This document shows positions 37,252-59,051 of a stretch of DNA of 64,000 bases, in pieces. Every line of letters begins with the position of its first letter. The first letter of the stretch is position 1. The DNA comes from Arabidopsis thaliana. Lineage: Eukaryota; Streptophyta; Magnoliopsida; Brassicales; Brassicaceae. The stretch spans positions 372,101 through 436,100 of the forward strand of contig NC_003074.8 in the NCBI RefSeq assembly GCF_000001735.4. The letters run 5' to 3'. A program made the translations under genes and the position numbers. The notes under the pieces are model-generated. The model was not told where the DNA came from. It did no database searches and saw only the letters and a program-made list of their open reading frames with translations.

Positions 37252-39378
37252 TTACAAGTTTCCATGTAGGAACACAATCAGTAACAAGGCCATTGCTGCA
37301 AACAGGGAACCGACTGATTTGTGCGAGCCGGTATTGGGCAGCCAAGGGTAAGAATCAGGAGGAGGCATCACACAGTTATCTCCATTGAAATAGATTCTTC
37401 TTGGAAACGCCCAACCTTTCTCAAATGTGAAAGCTGATGCTTCTTTCTGGAAAAGTAGCTCAGATTGTACATTACCAAATGGCCCAGCTTGCATCAACAG
37501 ATCATTGTAGAACTTTATTCCCCAGAGAATCCCAGTATCATCTATATCAAATCAAAAACAAAAAAAACACATCAAGATTTGTTCCTTTCTATAGAAACAA
37601 GGGACTGATAGATGATGGTGTACTTACTTATGGAAGCATAAGGAGTCAGAGGTTTATAGTTGAAGCTAAAAGTCTGAGTTAGATTGTCGAAATTCGGATG
37701 CTGCACGACGAGATTCCACTGTGAATAGTTCATGTTGTAGTTGAAATTTGTGATGGTGACTTTAACTCTCCAGTACTGTTTGTAGTTGACTTTCACATGC
37801 CAGTGGATTCTAACTGGACACATATGCTTTGTACATTGGACCAGAGGCGGTATATATGCGTTCTTCCCCGGATTTGGAATGACTGATGCTATCCGTGGAC
37901 CTTTTGGGCTGTGTGGACAGACAAGACACCAAAATTAACCAAACAAGTTAACATATTTTCAGGTAATGAAAGTTATGAGAAGAACTTACTCTACACAATT
38001 CCCTGGCTGAGAAGTGTTTCTGCATCCACAAGAGCATGTTGGACAAGAAACTATTGTCTTGTTATAAAACGATGAAAGAGATACACAGCAAGTTGGTGTT
38101 TTCTGAGCTAAGAACTGCGAGTATGTGCAAGTTACATTCCAAGTCACTGTCACAGCAGAAAAAGAAAAGCCAAAACTCAGTTTTCATTTCACTCAAAAGT
38201 CAAATTTGTTTTGGTAGAGTTCAAGAACTGAGTAACTTACTTAATGCTTGAGTAACTCTTCGTTTATCAGTACCGATGAATCTAGTCGGTTTTACAATCT
38301 TCGCGGGGCTACAAGTATATCCCGGTCCAGGAGCTTTGAGAGTGAAATTCTTAGGTACCCTAACTGTCTTATTTGTGGTTCCAGCTTGTCCAACAGTAAG
38401 CTGGAAAGCGGAAACAGCAGTTGCGGGATCTTGAGCCCACGAGTTAAGCACACCCCCTCTGCAACAATTAGCAATCTGCTGATTGTAAGGAGATCCAGGT
38501 AAGAGATCAACAACAGAAGGTGTCTTTTTACAGCAATGAGGAATGGTTCCTTTGAATTTAGAACAATCTCCTTGTTCTGTGGTTTGTCCTCCATTCATTC
38601 CCCATATAACCTCTCTCTTTGCCCATGACCATCCAAGAGTCCAACCTGGAGCTTGAATGTGTCGATATTGCTGAAAATTATATACCGTTACAGTCGCCTG
38701 CACCGCGAGAAGATTCAAGATTTTAAAAATCACTATCAAGATTCAAGAAATTCCCAAATTTGAAGCTAATGTAAATAGATACCACATAGCCATCTCCAGT
38801 CCAGGTTATGATATCCCATTTGACAGTAATGTTCCCACTCGGGTCCAAAGGATCATAAGCTTCTGAAACAATCCCAAAAGCAACACCATGAGCACACAAA
38901 ATACTGAAGCTTTTTTTTGTTTTCTTATCTCATAGATTCTCTCTTTCTATAATAACAGAGCATTGAAGATGAAAATGTCAAAAAGATCTTCTCTTTTGAG
39001 GATAAGAAGCTCCTTCAAAACAATTATACGGCTTAACATACAAAATAACTTTCTTCTCTCTTTCCCTATGTACCCAAAAGCTCAAGCAATTGCAAGATCC
39101 AAACTTAAAGAACTCAATAAACACAAGCTCCTAGCAAATAATTTTAAAATATGCACATAACTAAAACATGGGGAACAAAGAAGGAAAGTTGCACTCAGAA
39201 TCATTGACGAAATAAAACCCTAGCAAGTAAAATACGGTAATGAACAGAGAAAAGCTTGAATAAAGATAGAATCTTTCGGCTTACCTGAAGGAGTTAAACC
39301 AGAGAAAGAAACTAGAAAGATTATAGAGATTCCGAACTTGAAGAAGATTGAAGAAGAGGAACACAAGAAAAACCCCAT
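37252..39378 (-). CDS. COBL1: COBRA-like GPI-anchored protein COBL1 (452 aa)
   Basis: Apoplastic GPI-anchored protein of the COBRA family, which binds or organises cellulose during oriented expansion. Six exons on the minus strand: 39378-39285, 38862-38783, 38697-38241, 38146-37990, 37908-37628 and 37541-37252. They give 452 aa. Order: hydrophobic signal peptide (about 10-30), an N-terminal CBM-like region (AYDPLDPSGNITVKWDIITWTGDGYVATVTV, W/Y-rich), a Cys-rich central region with the family motif CCVS at 230-233, then an Ig-like conserved stretch with HWHVKVNYKQYWRVKVTITNFNYNMNYS. At the end a hydrophobic tail (SLFAAMALLLIVFL) follows a small-residue site NTGSHKS, which is the GPI-attachment signal. 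Several N-x-S/T glycosylation sites are visible. The gene converges on eIF3m. The chromosome 5 duplicate is COBL4/IRX6. Confidence 0.95.
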
Positions 39379-41436: not shown

Positions 41437-43362
41437 TTTCGATGAGCTGTGAATTTAGATCGGAAAAAAACAGAGGAAGCGATTTTATCTGGAAGTCGAA
41501 GAAGAGGACATGTACAAGCGAGCGGCGCGAAAAGAAGTCGGAGCACCCAATTAGGTTATGTTATGGAATATGTGTTCATGACGGCCCAATCCATAAACTT
41601 TAAAAGCCCATCTATTTCAGCTACATTTGTGATACTTGTTGCCTTGTTGGGTTTATCCTTTCCAAATTTTGGGAGGTGTAAATTGTTATAAGTAGAAAAT
41701 AATAATTTAACGTCAATGTTCCATATTGTTTAATACTGTAAATAAAGTGTGAGATCTACCTATCATATTTTATAGGTTCACGTTCCATTTGTAATGTTTT
41801 AAAGGTTTCTTTTTTTAAAAGACGATGTTTAGTGGAATTTTCACGATGCATGCAATGATCAAACGCAACGTGCTTCGACGACCTTCCCACGACGTATAAA
41901 ATCAAAGTCCAATGATTTTTATTGTTATTAGATAAACAAAATGAATTTGTTCATAATAATTGTTTTTTAGTGAAATTTCGTGAAATGCATAATCATTTTC
42001 ATCATATAATAAAATAATTATTAATAGTTATCATCCGTGGTTTCTTTTATCATCAATGTACTAATCCGTATATTGATGATAAAAAAAAAATCGTATAGTA
42101 TATTCATAAGTGTAAGGAATGTCAAAACTTAAAATAAGTTTTGAGATTCAGCTTCCCACAATGCCACATGCGAATGTTCCTTCCATACATAGTAAAGTAG
42201 ATCGAGGACAGTTTTTAATTTATTATTCCCGTTAGTAAAAAGCCTAATTACATTCTCTAATTAACACCTTTATTGATGTTACACTCCGGTCAAAAAGTAT
42301 TCAATTATTGTTCGGTTTTTGTATCCCCCCATCTTTTAATTCTCACGAACGACTTTTTTTGTTTGTTAAAAACGCTCACACACGAATTGAGGTACATTGA
42401 TGGTAATGTAACTAATTTAAGTAAGAAACAATGGTAAGCAGAAATGAATTAAATTGCTAGCTGAAAGATCTATCCTTCGCAAGGTTATGTAGACCGGCCA
42501 AAAAAAAAGAGGTTAGCTAGACCTACTATTCTAAACTGTTCAATTTCCTCTAAGTCTAAAACTGATTATAAGTATAACAAAAAAAAAAAAACCTAAACGA
42601 ACAAGAAACAAAACTTTTTAACTTATTAAAAAGCCTTAAATCAAAACAAAATTCACAATTATATAATTAATAATAAATGATCAAAACTGAGGTTTTGTGA
42701 TTTTTGTTGGTCAGAAATTTAATATTGACCACTAAAATTTGAGAAACAAATTTATTTTGAATCTTTTGACCTTTTAATTAACCAAAATAAGTTAGTTTCT
42801 AAAATTCAAATGTCTTGACAACAATTTTATTTTTCTGTTGACAACAAGTTATAAAACCAAAAGTGTAACTGAAATATATAAATCCATATTAGTTCGTAGG
42901 TATATCTGATAATTTAATTTAATAACTAAACAAGAATATCAAAAAGTATGGATATTCTTCAAAAGTATCTGTTTAAAAAGATTGACAATTATTTTATTTT
43001 ATTTGTGGTGATAAATATCTAAAATATAATCTCTAGACAATATTATAAGCTTCTATTTTTATGGGAAATTAATTAACAAATGTTTTCTAAACCAATAAGA
43101 CAAATTATTAATAGCCTAGAAAACGGACAATTAAGAGACAAAATAGTAAAGTCTTCACTTCCTCACCATAACAAGGTTAAAAATTCTTTTGACCTGGTGA
43201 ACGACTTATAATCCACCACGTGTCAAAACTCACACAAAGCCCTCTCACGTGCCAACTAATATAAAAGCCAAAGCGACGGTCTTCAGAGTCTCCCATCACC
43301 TCCGATCTCAAATCTCACAATCTTTTCTCTCCAAATTCTCTTCTCTCTGAATCAATCCAATC
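41437..43362. other. divergent intergenic region with RGP1 promoter
   Basis: About 1.9 kb between the divergent DUF2039 and RGP1 genes. The middle (41800-43100) is AT-rich with no frame I can support. The RGP1-proximal end holds two G-boxes and a TATA box, described separately. Confidence 0.5.
43217..43266 (+). promoter_or_regulatory. RGP1 core promoter: two G-boxes and TATA
   Basis: CACGTG cores occur at 43217-43222 (CCACGTGTC) and 43246-43251 (CTCACGTGCC). A TATA-like AATATAAAAG follows at about 43257-43266. The RGP1 ATG is ~97 bp further, giving a short CT-rich leader. G-boxes bind bZIP and bHLH factors. Confidence 0.7.
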
Positions 43363-45204
43363 ATGGTTGAGCCGGCGAACACCGTTGGAATTCCGGTGAA
43401 CCACATCCCATTGTTGAAGGATGAGCTCGATATCGTGATCCCCACGATCCGTAACCTCGATTTCCTGGAGATGTGGAGGCCTTTTCTTCAGCCTTACCAT
43501 CTGATTATCGTCCAAGATGGAGATCCATCGAAGACCATTGCTGTCCCTGAAGGGTTCGATTACGAACTCTACAACAGGAACGACATCAACCGTATCCTTG
43601 GTCCTAAAGCTTCCTGCATTTCCTTCAAGGACTCTGCTTGTCGTTGCTTCGGCTACATGGTCTCCAAGAAGAAGTACATCTTCACTATTGATGACGATTG
43701 CTTCGTAAGTTTCCACAATTCTGTTTATAGATCTGTTCTTTTTTTCCTTCTTCATAGGTTCAGTTTGAGATCTAGTGATAAAGTCTGTAGATTTGACTGA
43801 TCTTTGAATTGAAAATTGAAAATACGATCACAATTCTCTAGGTCAACTTTAAGAAACACACTGTTTTGACTTAGATCTATATATTCATCTGCTTGATGGG
43901 TTTCGATCTGTTTTCAGAATTGAAATTGTGTTAGTCTTATGTTTGTCGGCATTGCCATGATCTCTCTTATGTTTAGGTAATGTCATTGTTGTTGGACCAA
44001 CCTTTCTATGTTATGTCTTAACAGTTAACTTCACAAGATTCTTGCATGTCATTGTCCTGCACATTTATGTTGTGGTCATAAGGCTTAAGGCAAAGAAAAG
44101 TCCAAACTTTATTTGTGGGGCTTTCTTTTTAGAATTGAGTTTTCAGTTACGCCATGATTGTAGCATTGATGTTGCTTTCATATTGTGTTGGTTTAGTCAT
44201 GTGTAACGTATTGTCTCTTTTTCTTATTTTTGTTGGCTTTAGATGCATTTGAATATTCTTTGCTTATAATTTAAATATTATTGTTGTTGTCATGTGTTAT
44301 AGGTTGCTAAGGATCCATCTGGAAAAGCTGTGAACGCTCTTGAGCAACACATCAAGAACCTTCTCTGCCCATCAACTCCATTTTTCTTCAACACCTTGTA
44401 CGACCCATACCGTGAAGGTGCTGACTTCGTCCGTGGATACCCTTTCAGTCTCCGTGAGGGTGTTTCCACCGCTGTTTCCCACGGTCTGTGGCTCAACATC
44501 CCTGATTACGATGCCCCTACCCAACTTGTGAAGCCTAAGGAAAGGAACACAAGGTAGTGTTTTATTTAACATCTTCTGTCTACATTTTTTTTTTCCGGTT
44601 TTTATAAGCTACCAATGCTTAACTGGCATCACTATTAGGTATGTGGATGCTGTCATGACCATCCCAAAGGGAACTCTTTTCCCTATGTGTGGTATGAACT
44701 TGGCCTTTGACCGTGAGCTCATTGGTCCGGCTATGTACTTTGGTCTCATGGGTGATGGTCAGCCTATTGGTCGCTACGACGATATGTGGGCTGGATGGTG
44801 TATCAAGGTACTTACTTTCCCCATTCCACTCGTTGCTTCAAAATGAATTTAAATGTTAATTTGTTTACTGATCTCCCTCTTATGTTCTTCAGGTGATCTG
44901 TGACCATTTGGGATTGGGAGTGAAGACAGGTTTGCCCTACATTTACCACAGCAAAGCCAGCAACCCGTTTGTGAACTTGAAGAAGGAGTACAAGGGAATC
45001 TTCTGGCAGGAGGATATCATTCCTTTCTTCCAGAGCGCAAAGCTCACGAAAGAAGCTGTGACAGTTCAACAATGCTACATGGAGCTGTCCAAGTTGGTGA
45101 AGGAGAAGCTAAGCCCCATTGATCCTTACTTTGACAAGCTTGCAGATGCTATGGTCACTTGGATTGAAGCTTGGGATGAGCTTAACCCACCCACTAAAGC
45201 TTGA
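43363..45204 (+). CDS. RGP1: reversibly glycosylated polypeptide 1 / UDP-arabinopyranose mutase (357 aa)
   Basis: Interconverts UDP-arabinopyranose and UDP-arabinofuranose on the cytosolic face of the Golgi, supplying arabinofuranose for wall polysaccharides and glycoproteins. Works in complexes with RGP2. Four exons, 43363-43704, 44303-44553, 44639-44807 and 44893-45204, give 357 aa, the known RGP1 length. Motifs: [15 protein letters not shown] near the N-terminus (nucleotide-sugar binding fold), the metal-binding DDD at about residues 110-112 (TIDDDCF, exactly at the first exon end), and Arg158 in [12 protein letters not shown]. Arg158 is the residue that is reversibly glycosylated in plant RGPs. 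No signal peptide or membrane segment is seen, consistent with a peripheral Golgi protein. Intron 1 is long (598 bp) and could hold enhancing sequence. It is the chromosome 3 counterpart of RGP2 on chromosome 5. Confidence 0.97.
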
Positions 45205-46441
45205 GCAGCAAAAAAACCACCACCGCAGTTTTGGTTATTAGCTCAACATATCATCTATCTTCTCCGTTTTGTTTTTGTTTTGTCTTTTCTCAAATTTTCC
45301 GGCGATTCTTCAGTTCGTTTTTAAGTTGCCGGAGTTTATTTAAATAGTGAATGGTGTAGTTCTATTTATGACCGAGACAATCTCTCTTTTGAGGTTTTTC
45401 GTTTTTGTTTCAATAATAAAAAATCATATCCCTTAGTCGTTGGTGTCTTTGCTTGCTGGTTTGTTGACTGTTATTTTGGATCAAATTAGTTGAAAGACAG
45501 GAACAGATTCCAATCAAATCAAGCCTTAAACATATTTGATTTAGTAGAACCCAGTTGGTGTTTTTGGCTGTATCCGACATGTTATGTAAAAATGGCCAAG
45601 AGACTCCAACATCATTATTAAAAGGATTTTGGAAAAGAGATGATGAAAACAACATCTTTATGTATCAGCAAATGCTTTTAGACTTAAATCATTAAGCCGG
45701 ACTGCGGGAATACGCTGGTCTGTATTGATAAGCTCTTGAACAAACTCTAAAAAACCTTAACCCTTTTTTTATGATCACCCAAAGAAGGAGACCAATTAGG
45801 CTTTTATCCATCTAAGGATTAAAGTCAAACACGTATTTTCCCTGGGGACGACTTTTAACAGAATCGGACTTGTACTCTTTTAACTTTTTATACTTAAAAA
45901 ATTGGCAAGTAGCTCTGATAATTTGGTGCTAATCAGCTTCAAATGGACAGAACGATGCAGCTCATGAAAAATAATAATTGCTTTTGACTTTGTTTTCTTG
46001 TTTTCTAATTACTACTAGATGTACAAGGGGGTTTCATTGTAGCATCTAACTAGTTTTAGATTGAAAAGTGGCATCGGTACGTAGTAGCTCTATACATTCA
46101 GTTTGTGATAATTACTTAATTAGTGATAACATATGGTATTTGGTAATAAAAATTATTAATTCACATAATGATGAGAAATGAGCCGAAATCAAATACTGTA
46201 ATCCAGAACAATTTATTTTCCCTCACGTATATTTATCGAATTTTGTTACATATATGAAAGGACGTTAATTAAGAACTTTATAAACTCAACCATTTTAGAT
46301 TTTGACTTTGGTTTTCTATATATATAAATAAATACATATATCATCCACAAAAACATATGACATTCACTCACATCAGAATTTCAAAACCGTAAAGAAATAC
46401 CTTCCTTTTGAAGTCTTTATTCTCTCCACGATTGACGATTA
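45205..46441. other. RGP1 3' flank and RGF7 promoter
   Basis: RGP1 3'UTR runs to about 45430 (AATAATAAA at 45412-45420). The segments at 45905-46070 and about 46300-46420 are the promoter of the first peptide gene. Both are recognisably repeated upstream of the second copy (47663-47780 and 47865-47990). Confidence 0.6.
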
Positions 46442-46978
46442 ATGGAGATGAAGAAGTGGAGTTATGCGAATTTAATAACCTTAGCTTTGTTGTTTCTCTT
46501 CTTTATTATTCTTCTTTTGGCATTTCAAGGTTCGGCTTCGATCCTCTTGTTATTTTTTCTTCCATATCTATAATCATTTACTTGATAGTGATGGATCCAT
46601 ATGATCTATATATGCATTTAGGTGGATCAAGAGACGACGATCATCAGCATGTTCATGTGGCCATCAGAACTAAGGATATCTCCATGGGACGAAAGGTATA
46701 TACAACTCATACAAATAATGGCTAAACCGAATTAAGACACACCAACCGCATATTTTGTTCTTAATAATGATGTGTATACATACATACAAGTAATTTCATG
46801 GAAAGTGATATCGTGATATCTTCACTTTCAGTTAAAAAGTTTGAAACCGATCAATCCAACAAAGAAAAACGGGTTTGAGTATCCGGATCAAGGATCTCAT
46901 GATGTACAAGAAAGAGAAGTATATGTTGAGCTAAGGGACTACGGGCAACGAAAGTACAAACCCCCCGTCCATAATTAA
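46442..46978 (+). CDS. RGF7: GOLVEN/root meristem growth factor precursor RGF7 (GLV4, 102 aa)
   Basis: Precursor of a secreted tyrosine-sulfated peptide perceived by RGI/RGFR receptor kinases; the family controls root meristem size and gravitropism. Three exons, 46442-46529, 46622-46695 and 46832-46978, give 102 aa. Exon 1 encodes an N-terminal signal peptide of about 30 residues ([11 protein letters not shown] then a Leu/Phe-rich core). Exon 2 and most of exon 3 are a variable charged propeptide. The last 13 residues are the mature-peptide motif: DYGQRKYKPPVHN. Asp-Tyr is the TPST sulfation site, the PP pair is a hydroxylation-type site and HN is the canonical C-terminus. The start at 46442 is chosen because MEM precedes the signal core; MKKW two codons later is equally possible and is the only start in the neighbouring copy. 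Confidence 0.92.
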
Positions 46979-48007
46979 CGGTTGCGCGTAGTACGTAGTC
47001 ATTGATACCGGGCAAATTATGGTTAATTTACTGTTTAACTTTGTAAAATAAACAAATGAATAAGTCATGTTATGATGTTTTTATTTTGTATAAGGTAAAT
47101 CTCCTCAGTATGTGCTGGTTTTATTTCATATCTTTTACGATTATTTTTCTATTAGAAATGTAAAAGAAAAAAAAAACAAATTGTTCAAAGCTGATTATTC
47201 AATATAAATCGTTATCAACTCTACGTATACAAACCAAATTTGAAATACCATTCTATATAGACATATATTACGTATGAAACTTTTTCTTGCCTCTCAGATT
47301 AAAAGATGGACTAAAAATGTTGCCATAACTCGGATTAAAAGATGGACTAACAATCCACTTGTATGTTCACCTGTCCAGTACTAAAAATGATCCCATAACC
47401 CGGATTAACAGATGGACTATATTATAACAATGAAGAGAAGTGTAGTGTTCATTTTCTTATATTCAGCTCAGAGACGTCTTTGACCAACGATTCCTTGACG
47501 GATATGGGGTTGGCGCCATCCATGGAGCTGGCTGGTTGTTGGAGTTGCAATTATCAAGCATTGACTACTCTTTGTTTTTTAGCGGACACTTGTTTTTATT
47601 TCTATAGTTCCGGTTAATTGATGGAATTTTTAACAGTAATGAGTACTGTTTATAATGATCATTGGCAAGTAGTTGATAATTTGGTGCTATCATCTAAAAA
47701 TAGACAGATAGATGGAAAATAACAATTGCTTTTTGACTTTCTGTTTTTCACCGTAGCATTTAACTAATTTTGGAGAGAATATTTCATCAGTGAAAAAATT
47801 AGCACTGGTCATTGGACATCCGGTGATTAAATATAATATCTTTTTCTTCAACCAAATTTATAGCTTTTGACTTTAATTTTCTATTTCTATATATACACAC
47901 ACATACTAACATCCACCAAAACAGATGATATTCACTCACATAGAAATTTCATAACCGTAAAGAAATATATATCTTCCTTTTGGGATCTTCCGGAAGATTA
48001 ATTAGAG
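46979..48007. other. intergenic with duplicated promoter of the second GLV copy
   Basis: Holds the 3' flank of RGF7, a small degenerate repeat array at 47297-47420 and a diverged copy (47663-47990) of the RGF7 upstream region. Shared landmarks include GATAATTTGGTGCTA and TTCACTCACAT..AATTTC..AACCGTAAAGAAATA. No additional gene. Confidence 0.6.
47297..47420 (+). repeat. degenerate local repeats GGATTAAMAGATGGACTA
   Basis: Three near-copies of (C)GGATTAAAAGATGGACTAA occur at about 47297-47313, 47331-47350 and 47401-47419. They are linked by related CTAAAAATG..CCATAAC segments. The period is uneven (about 35 and 70 bp), suggesting a decayed tandem array. It lies between the first and second GLV copies. 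Confidence 0.65.
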
Positions 48008-48580
48008 ATGAAGAAGTGGAGTTATGCGAAGTTAATGACCTCAGCTTTATTGCTTGTCTTCTTAAGTATTATTCTTTTGGCCTTTCATGGTTCGACCTCT
48101 TGTTATCTTTTTTTTTTAAAACATTATTATTATTATAACGTTTTATGTGATAGTGATGGATGCATATGATATGATCTATATATGCATTTAGGTGGATCAA
48201 GAGGTGACAATCATCTATATGATCATGTGGCCATCGGAACTAAGGATATCTTGATGGGACGAAAGGTATATACAATTTACACAAATAACAGCTACGAGTA
48301 CTTTATGATTACTTCAGTAATTACATATTTTGTTCTTAATGCAGTGCATCCATATATACAAGTGTTATCCTGTGATGTCATGATTTATTTTCACTTGCAG
48401 TTAAAAGATTTGAAACCAAAAACTGAATCGTTGAAAATGATCAATCCCAAAAAGAAGAACGGGTTTGAGTATTCAGATCAAGTATCTAGTGATTTATCTA
48501 GACAAGAAGTATTTGTCGATATGATGGCTAGGGACTACCAAGGCCCAAAACCCAGAAGCAAGCCCCTCAAAAACAACTGA
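48008..48580 (+). CDS. second GLV/RGF-type peptide precursor (111 aa), diverged C-terminus
   Basis: Tandem duplicate of RGF7. Exons 48008-48089, 48192-48265 and 48401-48580 give 111 aa with the same intron phases as RGF7. The signal peptide starts MKKWSYAKL and is nearly identical to RGF7. The RGF7 first ATG is here TTA (ATTAGAGATG versus AATGGAGATG), so translation must begin at the second Met. Exon 2 ([20 protein letters not shown], ending MGRK) is very similar to RGF7. The C-terminus reads [16 protein letters not shown]: the Asp-Tyr sulfation site remains, but the PPxHN ending has become PLKNN and the DY-to-end length is 15 rather than 13. It may encode a neofunctionalised or failing peptide. 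It may be the locus called GLV8 (AT3G02242), but I cannot tell whether that name belongs here or to the 49769 gene. Confidence 0.8.
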
Positions 48581-49768
48581 CGGCTGCGTGGCTGTCATTG
48601 TCATTGATAAGTAAGTGTAAATTAACTTTGTAAAACATATATAAAACGTTCGAAAAGTTCTATTATGATGTTTTTATACTGTATCCAATGACTGATCGTA
48701 TCATATAAGTACTTTGAATGTTTCTAAGGTTTGATTGTACATGTATACAACTATCCACATCGGAAAGATTACATATGAAATGATGCAACGAATGTGAACA
48801 ACATATATTTTGTAATTCTAAAGTGGCATGCATTCACACCAACAAGGCCACAAGGATTGAATCGGAGGACCCGCCCTCGTGTCTCTAAAAGAATATAGAA
48901 CCAGACTGTTTCGTACAAATCTAATTTAAATATTGTACAAACTAGGCATTTTTAGCAAATCTATGCTTTAAAAGATGTTTGGAACTACAAAAGTAGAGAC
49001 TTTGTTTAGAAACCCTAAGCAGTAAACAAAGATTTAATATAACTGAAACTCCAATGTTACTTTAGGGCACTTAAACTCATGAAAACTTCCCCATGCCTCC
49101 TTGAGTTCTTCAAGAATAATCTTTGTCTTTTTAATTTATACTCTTTGTCGGTACCAACTACCGACTTTCTGGATTTACTATTTTAGGTTCTTTATTTTTC
49201 GACTTTCCCATCTAATTGAATATATGATATTCTTTAAATAATTTTACATACTTCATTCTTATAAAAACTGTTTGTTTGATATACCATTTGAATTTTGTTT
49301 TTTATAGTGTAATTTAATTCGTATTATATTTCTAAATCTCTGCAATGAAAGATAACAACATCTATATTATGATTGAGATAGAGCTGCGACACACACAACC
49401 GTAAGAGTAAGACTAGGGAATTGTTTTAATAAATAAAATATTGAAACTTACTTGATAGAACTTGGGGAATTATTTGTAAATGATAGCAGAAAATTGGAGT
49501 ATTAATTGGTTATAAAATTTTATACTAATTTGTTTGACCAATCTTCCAAATGTTATTGCCGGAAAGATTTTATTTTTATTTTATGCTAGCGTTTACAATT
49601 ACCGATGAGAAGTGCCTTTTTGTCTTGCCTATGGAGCTGTCGGAAAACCCTAGCTTTCACTTTCCGGATTTCAAAAAATCTTCTACTGTATAACCCTTAT
49701 ATATAATAGCTTCACTCACATCAATTAAAATCCTAATCACTTCCTTAATATTGAAAAAGACAAAAGAG
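48581..49768. other. intergenic between second and third GLV genes
   Basis: AT-rich spacer. No promoter similarity to the first two copies was noticed. A small GC-rich patch AATCGGAGGACCCGCCCTCG at 48859-48878 has no gene context. No gene recognised. Confidence 0.5.
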
Positions 49769-50397
49769 ATGAAGAACACAAAAGCGAAGTTAATCACACT
49801 CGTTCTAGGGTTTCTCTTCCTCATGATGATGATGACCATGAACTTTCCTCATGTGCTTCAAGGTTCGTATATTGACAAAACACAAAACTCTTAGTTTTCT
49901 TTTCATTTTTTTCTTAGTGATATTATGAGTTAAATGATATAGATGTCGTAGTTATGTGTGTGTATCTTGTGGATATACTTAGACGTATGACGGTGTAAAA
50001 CATGTGAAGCTGATGTTGTACTCGAAAACTTATAAGTGGAAATATAGATGTAGGTGGATCCAAATATGGAGATTCTGGTCTTATAGCGAGCGGAAGCGAA
50101 CATCCCTTGATGGGACGAAAGGTACACAAAACTTTTTCTTTTAATCAAACTTTCGTTTAGCGTTAAAAACTTTCACTAGCATACACTTTTTCTTGTCAAA
50201 CACATACATCATACTTTTCTTATTTTTAATATGTTTTATCGCAGATAAAAAGTATAAAACCAATCGGTTCGGAAATAAAGAAAAGATCAAGAAAAGGCCT
50301 AGTCTCCACAGATTCAGCAAAGAAAATCGATCATCTAATGAGGAGTGACTATCCTTCACGTATGAAAGGGAGGAAAAGGACTCCAATTCATAATTGA
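49769..50397 (+). CDS. third GLV/RGF-type peptide precursor (104 aa)
   Basis: Third tandem member, more diverged. Exons 49769-49862, 50054-50121 and 50245-50397 give 104 aa, with introns at the same positions and phases as in RGF7. The signal peptide is MKNTKAKLITLVLGFLFLMM with a Met-rich core. Exon 2 begins GGSKYGDSG and ends PLMGRK, the boundary motif shared by all three genes. The propeptide is very basic. The C-terminus reads RSDYPSRMKGRKRTPIHN: Asp-Tyr plus a canonical P-x-HN end, but with 16 residues from D to N instead of 13. The internal KGRKR run could be a processing site. The intact HN end makes it a good candidate for a functional peptide. The open frame alone is broken up by introns, so it is easily missed. 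It may be GLV8 (AT3G02242), name uncertain. Confidence 0.78.
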
Positions 50398-51100: not shown

Positions 51101-52084
51101 AAATTGTAACATTCGTTTATGCTTATTGCTTAATGACTGCATTAACATGTAGGTTCATCTATATGTTTTGCCAAGACTTCACTATCTAATAATAATTAAT
51201 ACCATTATACTTTTCTTACAGTTTACAAAATCATTTTTTGTTTTTATCAAAAAAAGTTTACAAAAACACAATAATATTAATCTTTTCAAAATTACGAACG
51301 CAAACAAATTCCATTATTGTTTGAGATGTGTGTTCGTATTTATTATTTTGTACCGTGAAGACTACCTCTCAATATCATTAGCTTCCAACGGCTATATTGA
51401 TTTCTGAGGAGATAGCGATGGTTGAGACTGGATTCACGACAAAAGCCTCGGGACCAACGGACAAAGAATTCGATATAAGGACCTTTGTTGCAATAACATG
51501 AAATAAACTTCTTTATTATTATTTATGGCAATCTAATTTTATGAAATACAGCCGAATTAAATTTATTCAAAGATTGCAAGGAAATCGATAAAAAGGTAAA
51601 AACGTACAGTAATTTTTGTTTTTCTTACACAATAGTAATGTGACTCAAATTTTTTGTTATGAGTTATAAATAAATTTCTATTTAAGGTTATATATTTTTT
51701 GACAATCTAAATTTTATTTATTCAATGATTCCAAGAGACTTAAAATAGAATAATTATTTATTTTGTAAAATAATAATAATGATAATCATATGTGTGATAT
51801 AATTTTACACTGCATTTTACTTTTTAGCTACCAAAACTGCAAGGCCATGGATGATGATGACTGAGGTGGCATAGGACAAATTTGCAAACATGACCCTGAA
51901 AGCTTCAACCTTTCTTCTGCATCAACTGAAGCTCTTCAGATATCTCTGTACACCAAAGAACCCTAAATAACTTCTCATCTCTTTAAGAAACCTAATCTTC
52001 CAGATGGATATATCATTCCCATTAGATAACTCCATCCATGTCCTGCATCACCCCCACGAAAGACAACATTGGAGGATCTGTTCA
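51101..52084. other. intergenic and 3' flank of the GT106 gene
   Basis: AT-rich. The last ~250 bp (51830-52084) are less AT-rich and are probably the 3'UTR of the minus-strand GT106 gene. A short frame starting ATGGTTGAGACTGG at 51418 ends after about 27 codons and is not supported. Confidence 0.45.
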
Positions 52085-54276
52085 TTAGGTTTCTTCTAGT
52101 GAATTGCCATTATTCTCATGTAATAGCTGAAGACATTCATATGGATTAGCATAGAAGTAGTCTTCTTCTTTCGGTTTATTTGGAATCACTAGCCGTCTCT
52201 TTGGCCCTCCCATTCGTGTAGCGTGAAAGGCCTTAACCGTGGTTGAAAACACTTCCCAGCTCAACAATCCTTCATAATATTCATCTATCAGCTTAACCAA
52301 CAACTTCCGGTTTAGCTCAATTGTCTTCTTGAACCCCAAGAACCTATATGTGATTTAAATGCCATTAGCTTTGATGAAATAAACAATTAGATTAGAAAAG
52401 TTAGAATGAATGATTCACCTGCGATGACCTTCCACGACTTTCGCCATGTTTCCGTAATAAGTAGGAACGAATATATCACTTTCGAGAGAGATAAGGTAAT
52501 CAAGAGCAGCCATTTGAGAAGAATGGTTTTTACAAAAACTCAAATCAGAAGAATCGAGTAGAGTTTCTTTCCTCACCTGGTTTGATCAAAATAAAATATT
52601 ATTGGTCACTGACTTTTGAGTGAAATATTAAGGAATAATTTTAGACACCAAGTACTAACCACATTTGGAAAAACATCTGTTAAAGCCTTTAACCGCCTTT
52701 TACCACCGTATATTTCTCCTGCAGCTATGTAAATCTGAACATTTCGGTCAATACCCAATGCAGATAGCGTAAGAGCTGTTTCTTCAGGAGTCAATGGGCA
52801 AAGACCTTCTTTCCTCTTCAACTCGGAGTCTATTACTTTCTCTTTCCACCACGGATAAGCATATCTAAGCAATGAAACAAAATGATAACATCAATATCAC
52901 GAAACAAAAGTCGGAACTTTTTATATAATTAAGAAGAGATAGTTGTATTAACCTCATTCTTGTTAGTTCTTCCTCTTCGTAGCGGTTGCAACCATGTGAG
53001 CAACCAGAAAATGCCAACATATCCATTTCGTATCTGAGATGCAGAACTAGAAAGGGACCTTTCTCCCTGAGAATCTTGACTACTCTTCTACCCAATTCCT
53101 CAATCTTTGGAGTAAACCTAAGCCCATTGAAATTTGCTCGGCATCGCAGCTTCTGAATCTCAACAGGTAGTTCGTTATTAGCAAGTCGAGTATCGGTCTT
53201 GTTCAGATGTACCACCTTATACTTCTTCACCAGCGGAAGAATCTGTTTCCAAGTATTAAGTACAAAGAAGCTGTGAGAAACCAATAAAGTAAATTGAAGA
53301 CTCATCTCATAAAAGACTAATGCTGAATTCTTCTTGGTGTAACCGAGAAAGTAACCTGGTCTTGGTAGTAGGACATGTTGGACCAGCTAATAGGAGGCAT
53401 GGTGTGGTACAGCCCGAGCCTAACCCTTCTCTTAAGCCTTGGAGGAAGCTCTTTTAGTATACGAACCTCGTCCCTTAAAGAACTTATGAAATGGTCCACG
53501 TCGAATATGTCTTTGAACTCACTGCCCATATGAAAATGCAATCAAGAGAGGTTATCAACTAAGTAAAGGAAGTATTCAGTAATAAACTCCGAGTAAGAAG
53601 ATGGATGGCATAAAACCTTGGATCATTCCAAAACGAGGTCTTGTCAAGCTCTGGGACAATAAGTGTGACATTCATGTATCTTGCAATAGTGACCATATCA
53701 CATATCTGAAGAAAGAAAACAGAGTCCAAAAGTCACATGAATAGAAACACACAGCTTTCAGAAATAAAAAGAGATTTCTTTAAGAAAGCAAGAGGATTAG
53801 TTCTGAACTTACCGCTGCTCGCATTTGGTTGAGTCCTCCATTGCAAGAAACCATAAGATAGCCATTGTTCTGATATATCCCTGAGATGAACAAAAAGCAT
53901 CAAAATTTCCGCTACTTTTAAACTGAAAACAAGTTTGTTGCAGCTAAGCTACATAATCGGAAAGACACTTACTTTTAGGTGGGAGGGCGATTTTCATGGG
54001 AAGAGAAGTCATTTCTGCAGCAATGGGGAAGTCATGGTGATTGAAACAAGAAGGCCAGCCTTTCAACAATCTAGGTCCCCACATCTCTCCCACAGCAACC
54101 AAATGAACAAAGCAACTCCATAGCAACAATATAGTCATAGCACGAATCATCCATAAGCTCATACGAGACCTCAAAACCAAGGAGTTCTTAAGCTTGTCAA
54201 TCTTACTATCTCCTAGAAACTTAACCTTCATCTCCCAGAGTTTCCTGTGATAAAGAAACTTCTCCGCTTTACACAT
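52085..54276 (-). CDS. RRT2: GT106 O-fucosyltransferase-family protein, RG-I rhamnosyltransferase type (512 aa)
   Basis: Golgi type II glycosyltransferase of the plant O-fucosyltransferase-like GT106 family. Its chromosome 5 relative RRT1 transfers rhamnose onto the rhamnogalacturonan-I backbone. Eight exons on the minus strand: 54276-53973, 53880-53813, 53705-53617, 53521-53356, 53242-52953, 52864-52660, 52576-52419 and 52343-52085. They give 512 aa. A single membrane anchor lies near the N-terminus (about residues 40-62, [20 protein letters not shown]). Family motifs: [27 protein letters not shown] (donor-binding region), [36 protein letters not shown] (the HxRxE-type catalytic segment), and [16 protein letters not shown] with PLTPEETAL. 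The C-terminal Arg/His block is [14 protein letters not shown]. The RRT2 symbol and the donor/acceptor are from family knowledge, not visible in the sequence. Confidence 0.9.
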
Positions 54277-57200
54277 TTTCTAAAATCCTAAAACTCTCCA
54301 CAGGGGAATTTCATCAAACAGATTCCTGACTCACAAAGACGAATCAAATCCACAGAGAGTCTTCCTCAGATTTACACACTCTCTCTCTATCTGCTGCACT
54401 AATGATTCTAAATTTATTAACACTCAGAAAAATGAAAACTTGACGCAAAAACAGGGAATTCTCAGGAACATTAAATACTCCTCGAAAGAATCCAGATTCT
54501 CGCTCAAGTCAACCTCAAATTCTGCCGCTTAATATATAAAACAAATCAAAGATAAGAAGAACCTTCCATATCCGACAACTCTAAACCCATCAAAAATCTC
54601 ACACATGAGAACCACCCAGAAAAATCAGATAGATCTTAATTCGATGAAGACAGACTTTGTAGCTAAACTCTCCAAATTACAATGCAATGACGATCGTTGA
54701 AGAAAAAGGAGGAAGCTTTGGAGAATGCTTGTTGAGTTTGTTAACGAGATTCTTCGTCCAGATCCGGTCGGTGATCACCAAAGATTCCGGAAGCTCGAAG
54801 AGAGAAACTGGGAAGAAAGAAGAAGAAGATCAGGACAAGAATGTGCAAAAGATAATCGAAAGATCAATATAACAAAAAAATGAACTGTCTTTTTTTTTGT
54901 CGGTAGTCTTTTTTTTTCTGACCGTTTTTGTTAACCTTTTCTGTGTAAAGACAGTTGGAAATTGGAACCCATTGTTATATTTGCTTCATCTTTTTATATA
55001 TACTGATCAAAATAAAATATCTCTTAAGGGAACAATATCTTTAAAATATAACACGGATTCGTTTTTGCCAATTACATTGATTTGATTCATCAAAATTCAA
55101 AAACAAATACTACACCGATTTGAACTAAGTCTTAAAGATTAATGATGAGGAGTATAATCAAAATACTTAAATTCATCACAAATATTATTTTAAAAGATGT
55201 TTTTTTATATACGTATAGTAACTTTATCTTAATCAAATACCAAACTCTTATGTTTTTCTTCACAAAGTTACATAGGATTGAAAAGAGTCAACCTTTGAAG
55301 TTTGTTTGACCACATCGTTTATTAATTATATTCTAATTACCAAATCCAATTTTTGTATTTTAGTATTTTATAAGAAGTTAAGTATCATAGTATATAATTT
55401 CCGTTATAGCTAAACCACATCGATATATAGGTCCTTTTCTCAAACAATTTTTGTCACTAAATTGAACCGATGAAGTAACTCAATGCCAAACTTAAATTAA
55501 ACGCATAAACAGAAGAAAAAAATAAAAATTACTGATTTAAATATTCTTAGGTATATCATTTTTTATATTGATCAGTGATTATGGAATTAGTAAACATACT
55601 TCATACATTTGTTTGTTAGTTGAAATATATACTACTGTGATATTTTGTTGTTCGTATTATATATAAGGAACGAATATGCTGAACCCACTAATTTAGCAAT
55701 AAACATACATAAAACGAATACAAAGAGGCATTTTCTAGTTTTATGGATCTCTCTTGTTGATACCCATGGACATATAGATTTTTCAACAAATTACAAAATA
55801 GGTAGGTCCATGGTATCTAACTATGTATTGTTTTCTTACTATATTCTAAAATATAATAATTGTAAGTAATAATATGAAAAAAATGAAAGCAAAGGAAAAT
55901 ATGAAAGTAATAATATGTTTTCTATGAGTAGAAGAACAAAGATAATTAAATAGAATTCGGTACCTTAGTTTCGTTTGAAGCATCGTATAAATGTCAACAA
56001 TAAACTAAATTAGAATTCATTTTAGCATATCAGAGTATACATTTGTAGCATATCAGTTTCATTTTTAGTTTTTAAAACTTAGATTTATTTATGAGGAAGA
56101 CAAATAAATATACAACTTATTACCTGGATGGCCAAATCCTTTCATTCATATATATATATATATGGATAAGAATCCATCAAATCCAAAGATTTTTATACCT
56201 AAATAGTTTTCCTTCACGTGAACTATACGTTATACTATATGCTTTACCAATAGCAGATTTTGTGGACAAAAAACACAGAAACAGAAGTTACATAGTTAAT
56301 ATGAGAATTGAGAAAATTCACCAAAAGAGGATAAAAAGACAAAGGCCCGTGACCTGGCGAGTTGCTTGGTTTGTTTGTATTTTACTATCTTCTCAAGTTA
56401 CAATTTTGAGAAATGTCACATGTGTGTGCATATAAGTATATAGACACATACTGACATACATATGTAGATTGCTAATGTATAATCATCATGTACAAAGTTA
56501 GGAAATTATTTTAGAAATCAAAAGAAAATACAACCAGAAACACACATTAATTTCTAAAAACCATAAGTACAAATTGAATTAAAAGTTTATGTTGTCGACT
56601 GAAAACGATTCTTTATTTGTTTTGTTTCGTGAGTGATAACGTATTTATGATTGATTAGTTTGTGGTTATAGGTCTAGAAAAGGGCTCTTAATATGCAAGG
56701 CCCTCGACAGCGAAATTAATGTTTTTAAGTCTCATCATATACAGAATTGTAATGTATGAAATGATTTTTATTTGAAAACTATATATTTTGAAAAAGGGTC
56801 TTTCTTTTTTTTGGGACAAATTTAAAGAGGGTCTATAATAGTAATATACGATTTCGACATTTTCTAGTCCACGACATCAAAATTCTATTTAAAAAATCAA
56901 AAACACAAAGAAAATTAATTCAAACGCGACGAGTTTAACCATTGAAAAAGTTTCTATTTGTTTGTTTGTTTTTAACTCCCCATTGTTTTAAGTGTGATCA
57001 TTTAGGTCTCAGTACGTAGATTGATAGTAAATAAATAGTGGGTTTGTGTGAACGTAAATGTGTTGGGACTGAGGTGGGCGTAACGCGAGAGGGGATCCAA
57101 TTAAATGTACCACCCAACTTGGATTGCAAATCAAGATTTAGTTCAATGATAGTTCGTTTCAGAAGACACGTATCCACTAAGAATTAACAATGGCACGTAA

Positions 57201-59051
57201 ATGTAACAAAATTAATTACTCCACACTTTAGTTAGAAGTTTTTTAAAAAAAATCAAAATGCAAAATCTTCACATTTTACCAAAAAAAATAAAAAAAATCA
57301 AAATGCATTTAAGTGGTGATTTTAAGAATTATGATTACCGTACCAAAAAATTAAGAAAGTCAATAAAAATATGCCGGTTTATTTATATTGAGTTTGACCA
57401 TAAAATAATAAACAGTGTAAAAAGTCCAATAAATTTTCTTGTTCGGGATGATAAACCTATTTAAATGAAGAACAAGTGAACAAAAAAAAACAAGTGAAAT
57501 TAATATTGGTAGAAAAAGGACATTTAACAATTAAGATCTCCACGAGCATAAAGAAAGTTGTGTCGGTGGCTCAATGCATTCAGCATGACGTGCCATTCTC
57601 AAGTTTATTGCTTATCTGCATAGAAGAAAGAAAATAAATATAACAGCCCATAGGCCATAGTCACCCTAGTTTGATGGGCCTTCAAATTCAGCCCATCACC
57701 AAGTTTAACGCATTAGGATTTTTTGTTCTCTTCTCTTCTCTTATATTCGCTTTGGTTGCAGAGAAGCTCAAAATCCGGAGAAAGATTCCGTCCAATGCTG
57801 CAAACGTGGCTCGGGTCTGAATGTCTAATTAAGCTCAATGGTTCACTGATCCAAAAACATAATAACATAAGAGAGAGCTAGCAACATGTATACTATTTCA
57901 TTTTTTTTAGAGTTTTTCAGCCAATGAGAGAGCTCTATTTCAGATCCACTCGCACAAAGTGCGCGTTGAGCGAGTGAGAGCGATTCTGTGGGTGTACCCC
58001 TTTCCAAATCATGCCTTTTTCAATCGACGCATTCCTCTCCGAAATACACATCGCGTGACTTTTGTTTTTTTGCTTTCTTCTCTAAACCAATGTAAACCGA
58101 ACCAATATCGATTTTAATTCCAAAACCACATAATTTTACATTTTCTCCTCTTTTCGGATGTGATAAATTTTTTTCTTTTTTCCAGATTCGGTTCATTAAA
58201 ATGAAATATTAATTGTATGATTCCTTTTTTTTTTTCTTCTTCATACCTTTTCTTCTTGCTTTTTAGTTCTGTTTCTTTGCATGTATTGAATTGACAAAAC
58301 AAGATTTTGAAATTACTTTTTGGTATTTGATGTGGAGTTATTTTCATTAATGTATTGTTTATAAATAAGGAAACAAATTTTAAGAGTATTTTTTTTTTTT
58401 GGAATAATCCAATATGATTTATATGAATATCTATCACAGTAATTATAGATTTAATGTATCTTGAAAAATTAATCATATATTAAAGTACTTGGAAATTATA
58501 ACATGTTATATTTTAGACACATATGATTCTCCTTTCAAATTTTAAATATAATCTTGTTATAGCTTTTAAGTATCACTAATTAATTAGGAGAGATTAGAGT
58601 GTTTCCATAAACTCATAAAAGTAGATAGAGTTTCTATTTAGAAGTTAATTAATAATAATAAAGATATTGCTAAGTTGTACTTATTTTTCAGTTAACTTCA
58701 ATTTAGAAACATCGGTGGCTCAATAAACCAAACTTATATTTTTGATGATTAAAATTCGAACCTGTACACTAATCCAATCCGAATCTACACATTTGCATAA
58801 AATGTTATACCATGATACCAAAACCAAATGTGGAAATTTTCAAACCGAAGACTCGATCGTGCGAGTTGTTGTGCTGCGAGGTTAAACAAAGAGCAATATG
58901 TGTGTGCTTTTGCATTAATAACACAACAAAACAGAGTGTCTCAATGTTTACAACAACGACAATTTTCTAAATTACAATCAATCACAAATATTAATAACAA
59001 GAGACACATTGCCAAAAATAAAACACATAAAGCTCTTCCTTGTTCCCGAAA
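54277..59051. other. GT106 leader and large AT-rich intergenic region
   Basis: From 54277 to about 54890 is the CT-rich 5'UTR and promoter of the GT106 gene (read on the minus strand). From 55000 to 59051 I find no supported gene. The frames at 55645-55869, 56091-56435 and 57258-57464 are AT-rich without domains. GCCCA-rich promoter-like DNA occurs at 57640-57700. The region adjoining 59051 is the BIG 3' flank. Confidence 0.5.
58708..58765 (+). mobile_element. possible tRNA-derived SINE head fragment
   Basis: TCGGTGGCTCAATAAACC (from 58712) resembles a pol III A box (TGGCTCAATAA) and ATTCGAACC at about 58755-58763 resembles a B box, one mismatch from GWTCRANNC. The spacing of about 35 bp is right for a tRNA-derived SINE. 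The phrase TCGGTGGCTCAAT recurs at about 57563-57575. No poly(A) tail or target-site duplication was found. Confidence 0.25.

Follow-up and report, generated by a model that had tools for sequence, protein, structure and literature searches.

A credible overlooked RGF/GLV-type gene beside RGF7 and GLV8 in Arabidopsis thaliana, and GLV9 as its very probable duplicate partner

Peptides of the RGF/GLV family, members of which are also named CLEL, govern leaf immunity as well as root meristems and lateral roots, and their mutants are hard to interpret because of redundancy. In CLEL6 and CLEL9, SBT6.1 cleaves the variable region of the precursor in the early Golgi, sulfation of the tyrosine by TPST needs a preceding Asp, and subtilases including SBT3.8 release the peptide after the Golgi in an Asp-dependent manner (PMC7162652). 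The receptors that perceive RGF7 in immunity are RGI4 and RGI5 (PMC9066070, PMC11371470). Counts of the family range from 11 (PMC5021288, PMC11371470) to 13 members (PMC11534595). The table of PMC11534595 includes AT3G02240 (RGF7/GLV4/CLEL4, 102 amino acids, peptide DYGQRKYKPPVHN) and AT3G02242 (GLV8/CLEL5, 111 amino acids), and in GLV9 a Glu replaces the Asp, a change that PMC4016512 describes as the sole exception in the family and as functionally conserved. Here we analyze a 64,000-nucleotide (nt) stretch of A. thaliana chromosome 3 (C3:372101-436100, hereafter the window; C3 and C5 denote chromosomes 3 and 5), in which RGF7 and GLV8 are followed by a third gene that is a credible overlooked member of the same family.

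The gene models, the homology and synteny assignments and the substitution rates given below were computed here. Models were rebuilt from the raw sequence, the genome searched was the window's own (119.66 Mb, 7 contigs), the sole plant genome used, and the three genes are called g1, g2 and g3 in cluster order. An earlier note on this DNA had described three three-exon genes in tandem with identical intron phases and coding exons of 68-180 nt, each with a signal peptide, a GGS...MGRK module in exon 2 and a C-terminal Asp-Tyr. The rebuilt models (Table 1) agree with that description. All six introns run from GT to AG, with phases 1 and 0 in each gene, the coding exons measure 88/74/147 nt in g1, 82/74/180 nt in g2 and 94/68/153 nt in g3, and the module and the Asp-Tyr are found in all three. 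The N-terminus is hydrophobic in each case, as judged by hydropathy only (best 15-residue Kyte-Doolittle mean of 3.36, 2.91 and 2.65 for g1, g2 and g3, respectively); in g3 the maximum lies at residue 8, and windows that start past residue 30 reach 0.08 at most. Pairwise blastp, run against a one-sequence database and without composition correction, gave E values of 4e-40 for g1-g2, 2e-9 for g1-g3 and 2e-8 for g2-g3, and shuffling the secreted part 2000 times for each of six pairs never reached the observed alignment score. As spliced in the models, g1 and g2 encode precursors of exactly the published lengths, 102 and 111 amino acids (PMC11534595). Since peptide and precursor length both match the published table, these two genes are not new: the family identity and the placement of RGF7/GLV4 that had been proposed are borne out, and g2, which the proposal did not name, is likewise a known gene, GLV8/CLEL5.

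The third gene has the build of an RGF/GLV/CLEL precursor. Its product is of about 100 residues (104 amino acids) with a hydrophobic N-terminus; its C-terminus, DYPSRMKGRKRTPIHN, follows the pattern of the rows in PMC11534595, namely 13-16 residues that start with Asp-Tyr, carry a Pro near the end and finish in (H/N)N; and it is homologous to an accepted member, GLV9 (blastp E value of 3e-24), which lies in a collinear block and has equal intron phases. The g3 peptide is absent from the 12 visible family rows of the PMC11534595 table, which exclude the row preceding RGF2, while the text of that paper mentions 13 precursors. Fragments of the g3 peptide and precursor had no match in the main texts of open papers, a scope that leaves supplements and databases outside. 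In the same kind of text, locus codes of the form At3g0224* were mentioned 11 times, spread over 6 papers, as AT3G02240 (6) or AT3G02242 (5), with no third locus, and the available text of PMC8329595, PMC4526923, PMC5021288 and PMC4498041 does not mention a third gene at the cluster. On its sequence features, g3 appears to be a credible overlooked RGF/GLV family member of A. thaliana.

The nearest relative of g3 outside the cluster was located by genome search at C5:5128051-5128200 (E value of 4e-7). The gene modelled at this site (C5:5127485-5128221) is GLV9 (AT5G15725), with three exons and 95 amino acids that end in EYPSPVKPRKRTPVHN plus six residues; peptide and length are as in PMC11534595. 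GLV9 and g3 have the same three exons and phases, with splice sites at equal codons. Their secreted parts align with a z score of 16.0, compared with 6.7 and 7.6 for g3 with g1 and g2; identity over aligned codons is 52%, compared with 38 and 39%; and 11 of the 16 residues of the mature peptide are identical. The likeness extends upstream of the coding region. A 39-bp segment (Table 1) is conserved upstream of both genes and is a candidate old regulatory element, and the proximal 200-bp promoters have a common 33-bp stretch with a score of 41, whereas the maximum was 35 among 500 two-base-block shuffles and 36 among 310 200-mers of the window (pieces of the g3 upstream region included). A genome search with 231 bp (48780-49010) returned the query itself as the only match, but it also missed the chromosome-5 copy, so that uniqueness is not implied.

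On chromosome 5, GLV9 sits between duplicates of both genes that flank g3 (Table 1). We take the left one to be an RGP1-like gene (RGP), and the right one is presumably an O-fucosyltransferase-like gene (O-FucT). Further to the left, the window from 32 to 41 kb corresponds to C5:5077261-5086465 in 7 pieces, 2 of which (one stretch) are inverted. The spacing is different on the two chromosomes, with 33 kb between RGP2 and GLV9 versus ∼4.5 kb between the RGP-like gene and g3. The synonymous divergence (Ks) of g3 and GLV9 is 1.00 (0.58-1.80; 86 codons), and that of the flanking pairs is 0.42-0.87 in six approximate pieces (longest open stretches, two of which overlap by 51 bases); one old duplication therefore fits, which we assume to be the Brassicaceae alpha event. 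Given collinear flanks (RGP, O-FucT and the 32-41 kb region) and comparable synonymous divergence, an old duplication, segmental or of the whole genome, has very probably produced the g3/GLV9 pair.

The other two genes form a younger pair. PMC3756979 lists RGF7 and GLV8 as a recent duplicate specific to the A. thaliana lineage, with divergent expression (seedling-specific versus non-specific) and a nonsynonymous divergence (Ka) of 0.2633. We obtained a Ka of 0.24, a Ks of 0.29 (0.16-0.46) and a Ka/Ks of 0.84 (0.48-1.62) over 100 codons. The pair may be older than most duplicates in that list, because its Ks clearly exceeds the value of 0.086 that PMC3756979 gives as the mean for its set and the introns and the 5′ stretch differ by 0.12-0.26. 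The same paper takes AT3G02242 to be the parental gene and AT3G02240 the copy derived from it; we treat them as a pair without a clear parent, and the end of g1 (PPVHN) looks more canonical than that of g2 (PLKNN). The duplication included the proximal promoter, with 45901-45996 matching 47661-47747 and 46286-46964 matching 47848-48553. The W-box core TTGAC[C/T] occurs 4, 4, 1 and 2 times per 1 kb upstream of g1, g2, g3 and GLV9, respectively, compared with a shuffle mean of ∼1 and a 99th percentile of 4, so the enrichment upstream of g1 and g2 is weak. A table of PMC4498041 lists RGF7 among downy-mildew-responsive genes. Between g1 and g2 there is also a 40-bp direct repeat of 90% identity (47310-47349 and 47380-47419).

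These results make it probable that the cluster is of two ages, with g3 as an old resident and the positional partner of GLV9, and RGF7 and GLV8 as a younger tandem pair copied with its proximal promoter; all three precursors are predicted to be processed to ligands of RGI/RGFR receptors. Each precursor would enter the secretory pathway, where SBT6.1 would cleave it in the early Golgi, at the conserved R-K-[L/I]-x of the MGRK module; TPST would then sulfate the tyrosine that follows the Asp, SBT3.8-like subtilases would trim at that Asp, and the C-terminal peptide of 13-16 residues would signal through receptor kinases of the RGI/RGFR group. In the stretch that separates the signal segment from the mature peptide, the four precursors (g1, g2, g3 and GLV9) share as invariant residues GGS, R-K and isolated P, I, S and D, and R-K-[L/I]-x is present in all four, across the exon 2/3 junction. 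By analogy with the RRLR of CLEL6, the MGRK module (ARK in GLV9) probably marks the site of pre-processing by SBT6.1. With its standard Asp, g3 seems, from its sequence, no less suited than GLV9 to sulfation and release. We infer processing of the three precursors at these sites, expression of g3 and use of such receptors by its peptide. It is conceivable, and we hold it tentatively at somewhat less than even weight, that g3 is an undescribed functional Asp-Tyr hormone of the RGF/GLV type that has been kept since the old duplication, its partner GLV9 having lost the Asp on which sulfation and release depend.

Several results weigh against this two-age account and a functional g3. The Pfam profile PF21529 (GLV1-2) scores g3 with an E value of 0.38 and 12.2 bits, compared with a cut-off of 28.1. 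Because the accepted members g1, g2 and GLV9 are also unmatched at an E value of 1, the profile is narrower than the family and uninformative for this branch. Its search of the genome gave 4 matches at 3 loci, with 0 in the cluster; one locus carries DYRTFRRRRPVHN, the RGF8/GLV6 peptide, and the remaining two are presumably GLV2 and GLV1, judging by their positions. PMC11939866 reports that three Brassica species lack tandem RGF genes; since its candidates were validated with PF21529, which misses every member of this cluster, that study says little on g3. Distances alone pair g3 with GLV9 uncleanly, because g1 and g2 are also nearer to GLV9 (45 and 48% identity; Ks of 1.19 and 0.85) than to g3, all these Ks values having wide intervals. 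Identity between g3 and GLV9 is not significantly higher in the mature peptide (11/16) than in the pro-region (20/47; Fisher p of 0.088). The window from 56.5 to 64 kb has no match to the chromosome-5 block among the 41 matches listed (40 of 44 candidates scored; a single repeat accounts for 38 of these matches); on present evidence the block extends as far as the right-hand anchor, and is not shown beyond. An open frame alone is moderate evidence, given that 4.9% of simulated decaying copies (see below) keep the frame at 0.5 substitutions per site, and a pairwise Ka/Ks mixes both branches, so that part of it could stem from constraint that acts on GLV9 only. For RGF7/GLV4, PMC9066070 reports that the exogenous peptide elicits no immunity response.

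A somewhat unlikely alternative is that g3 and the ancestor of RGF7/GLV8 arose one from the other through tandem duplication at this locus, later than the large-scale duplication, and then diverged fast. The three genes are adjacent, lie in the same orientation and have common phases and the GGS/MGRK module, whereas GLV9 has ARK; moreover, the Ks of g3 with g1 and g2 (1.14 and 1.24) and that of g3 with GLV9 have overlapping bootstrap intervals, and the Ks of g2 with GLV9 is lower. In keeping with this alternative, a search for a relic of a second gene in C5:5091001-5145000 (54 kb; tblastn, E value of 0.05) found only GLV9; sensitivity was limited, since GLV9 itself was detected by the g3 and GLV9 queries and missed by g1 and g2, and an old relic could escape. 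What speaks for the older origin of g3 is that it is closer to GLV9 than to g1 or g2 in both identity and blastp E value, and that g3 and GLV9 have upstream segments in common, whereas a self-comparison of the DNA gave no match of g3 with g1 or g2 at an E value of 1e-3. The split between g3 and g1/g2 may predate or postdate the large-scale duplication; the z score of 16.0 and the common upstream segments lean to the former, in which case the chromosome-5 copy of the g1/g2 ancestor would have been lost. The local birth put forward in the earlier note agrees with g1 and g2, with their Ks of 0.29, but not with g3, which is no closer in Ks to g1 and g2 than to GLV9 (with overlapping intervals) and has the collinear block in common with GLV9. 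That g3 is a decaying pseudogene whose frame survived by chance is distinctly improbable. Such a gene would agree with the absence of g3 from the 12 rows of PMC11534595 and from the peptide-fragment and locus-code matches in open main texts, but its frame, ATG, four splice dinucleotides, Asp-Tyr and C-terminal HN are intact, and the Ka/Ks of g3 and GLV9 is 0.35 (0.19-0.61). When neutral decay of g3 was simulated (4000 copies per level), frame, ATG and all four splice dinucleotides were kept in 2.75, 0.57, 0.05 and 0.03% of the copies at 0.2, 0.3, 0.4 and 0.5 substitutions per site, respectively. Because neutral copies so rarely keep these features, a long-dead g3 is unlikely; a recent silencing is possible.

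The cluster contrasts the old, constrained g3/GLV9 pair with the young, nearly unconstrained RGF7/GLV8 pair, and for the latter one may ask whether positive selection acts on the mature peptides and whether these change more quickly than other parts of the precursor, which we regard as unlikely. In the DNA of the mature peptide, with the stop codon counted, 11 of 39 aligned sites differ, compared with 35 of 259 other coding sites (Fisher p of 0.030), and the overall Ka/Ks of the pair is 0.84. At the amino acid level, however, the difference is not significant (6/13 in the mature peptide versus 41/60 in the pro-region; p of 0.20), the region is short with uncertain gap placement, intron 2 and the 60 nt past the stop codon also diverge by 0.25, and relaxed constraint fits equally well. 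The evidence that the mature peptide changes faster in this pair is suggestive only.

Table 1. Coordinates of the cluster genes, their parts and the flanking anchors (window positions; position 1 is C3:372101).
Feature	Position	Strand	Remarks
g1, AT3G02240, RGF7/GLV4/CLEL4	46442-46978	+	coding exons 46442-46529, 46622-46695, 46832-46978; 102 amino acids
g1 mature peptide DYGQRKYKPPVHN	46937-46975	+	identical to entry in the PMC11534595 table
g1 exon 2, GGS...MGRK module	46622-46695	+	R-K-L-K across exon 2/3 junction; putative site of SBT6.1 cleavage (cf. CLEL6)
g1 upstream region	45901-46441	+	parts common with g2; 46286 onward matches 47848 onward; W-box cores (-458, -140) in matched parts
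g2, AT3G02242, GLV8/CLEL5	48008-48580	+	coding exons 48008-48089, 48192-48265, 48401-48580; 111 amino acids
g2 peptide, 15 residues	48533-48577	+	identical to entry in the PMC11534595 table
g2 exon 2, GGS...MGRK module	48192-48265	+	R-K-L-K
g2 upstream region	47661-48007	+	within tandem duplicate; W-box cores (-275, -141) in matched parts
g3, RGF/GLV-type	49769-50397	+	coding exons 49769-49862, 50054-50121, 50245-50397; 104 amino acids
g3 putative peptide DYPSRMKGRKRTPIHN	50347-50394	+	from gene model; ends at stop codon
g3 exon 2, GGS...MGRK module	50054-50121	+	R-K-I-K
Conserved non-coding segment upstream of g3, 39 bp	48859-48897		90% identity to C5:5126841-5126879, upstream of GLV9
Left flanking anchor	43359-45252	+	duplicate at C5:5092199-5094155, 81-86%, ahead of more distant paralogues
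Right flanking anchor	52116-54279	- (inferred from open frames)	duplicate at C5:5134807-5136959, 76%, ahead of others

No further copy of the genes was found in the window with the four proteins (tblastn, E value of 0.05), in a search that also missed the link between g3 and g1/g2, so that equally divergent copies could escape. Beside the O-fucosyltransferase-like gene, on both chromosomes, lie short conserved segments (51817-51853 and 51885-51974, matching C5:5134590-5134721). The stretch 37334-38865 has an inverted match at C5:5084973-5086465, and also matches C3:11728550-11730082 and C5:24511545-24512810; it belongs to a small gene family and is locally inverted. The stretch 57852-58128 (∼275 bp) is probably a mobile-element relic: among the matches listed, at least 25 are long (78-88% identity) and at least 13 shorter, on chromosomes 2, 3, 4 and 5. 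Rfam gave 0 matches in the window at gathering thresholds, this stretch included.

If an unlisted, intact member lies beside RGF7 and GLV8, redundancy in the family has been left unaccounted for. The leaf glv mutant of PMC9066070 targets GLV1, 2, 6, 7, 8, 10 and CLE18. Were g3 functional, the ancestral role of the g3/GLV9 pair would rest mainly with g3, and existing multi-gene glv mutants would spare a member. The three genes of the cluster could be removed together by one deletion.

Compared with the described systems, g1 and g2 show no difference from RGF7/GLV4/CLEL4 (AT3G02240) and GLV8/CLEL5 (AT3G02242), respectively, in peptide and length, the two traits compared. CLEL6/GLV1 and CLEL9/GLV2 resemble the cluster in having a signal peptide and an Asp-Tyr that opens the mature peptide, and CLEL6 also has a basic SBT6.1-type site in its variable region; the CLEL6 sites are RRLR and RRAL (PMC7162652), whereas the putative site in the cluster is R-K-[L/I]-x at the exon junction. 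The closest likeness is that between g3 and GLV9, which agree in three exons, phases 1 and 0, the GGS...RK module, a mature peptide of the form YPS..K.RKRTP.HN, the upstream segments and the flanking gene pair. GLV9 differs in having Glu-Tyr for Asp-Tyr, ARK for GRK and a C-terminal extension of 6 residues, whereas g3 stops right after HN.

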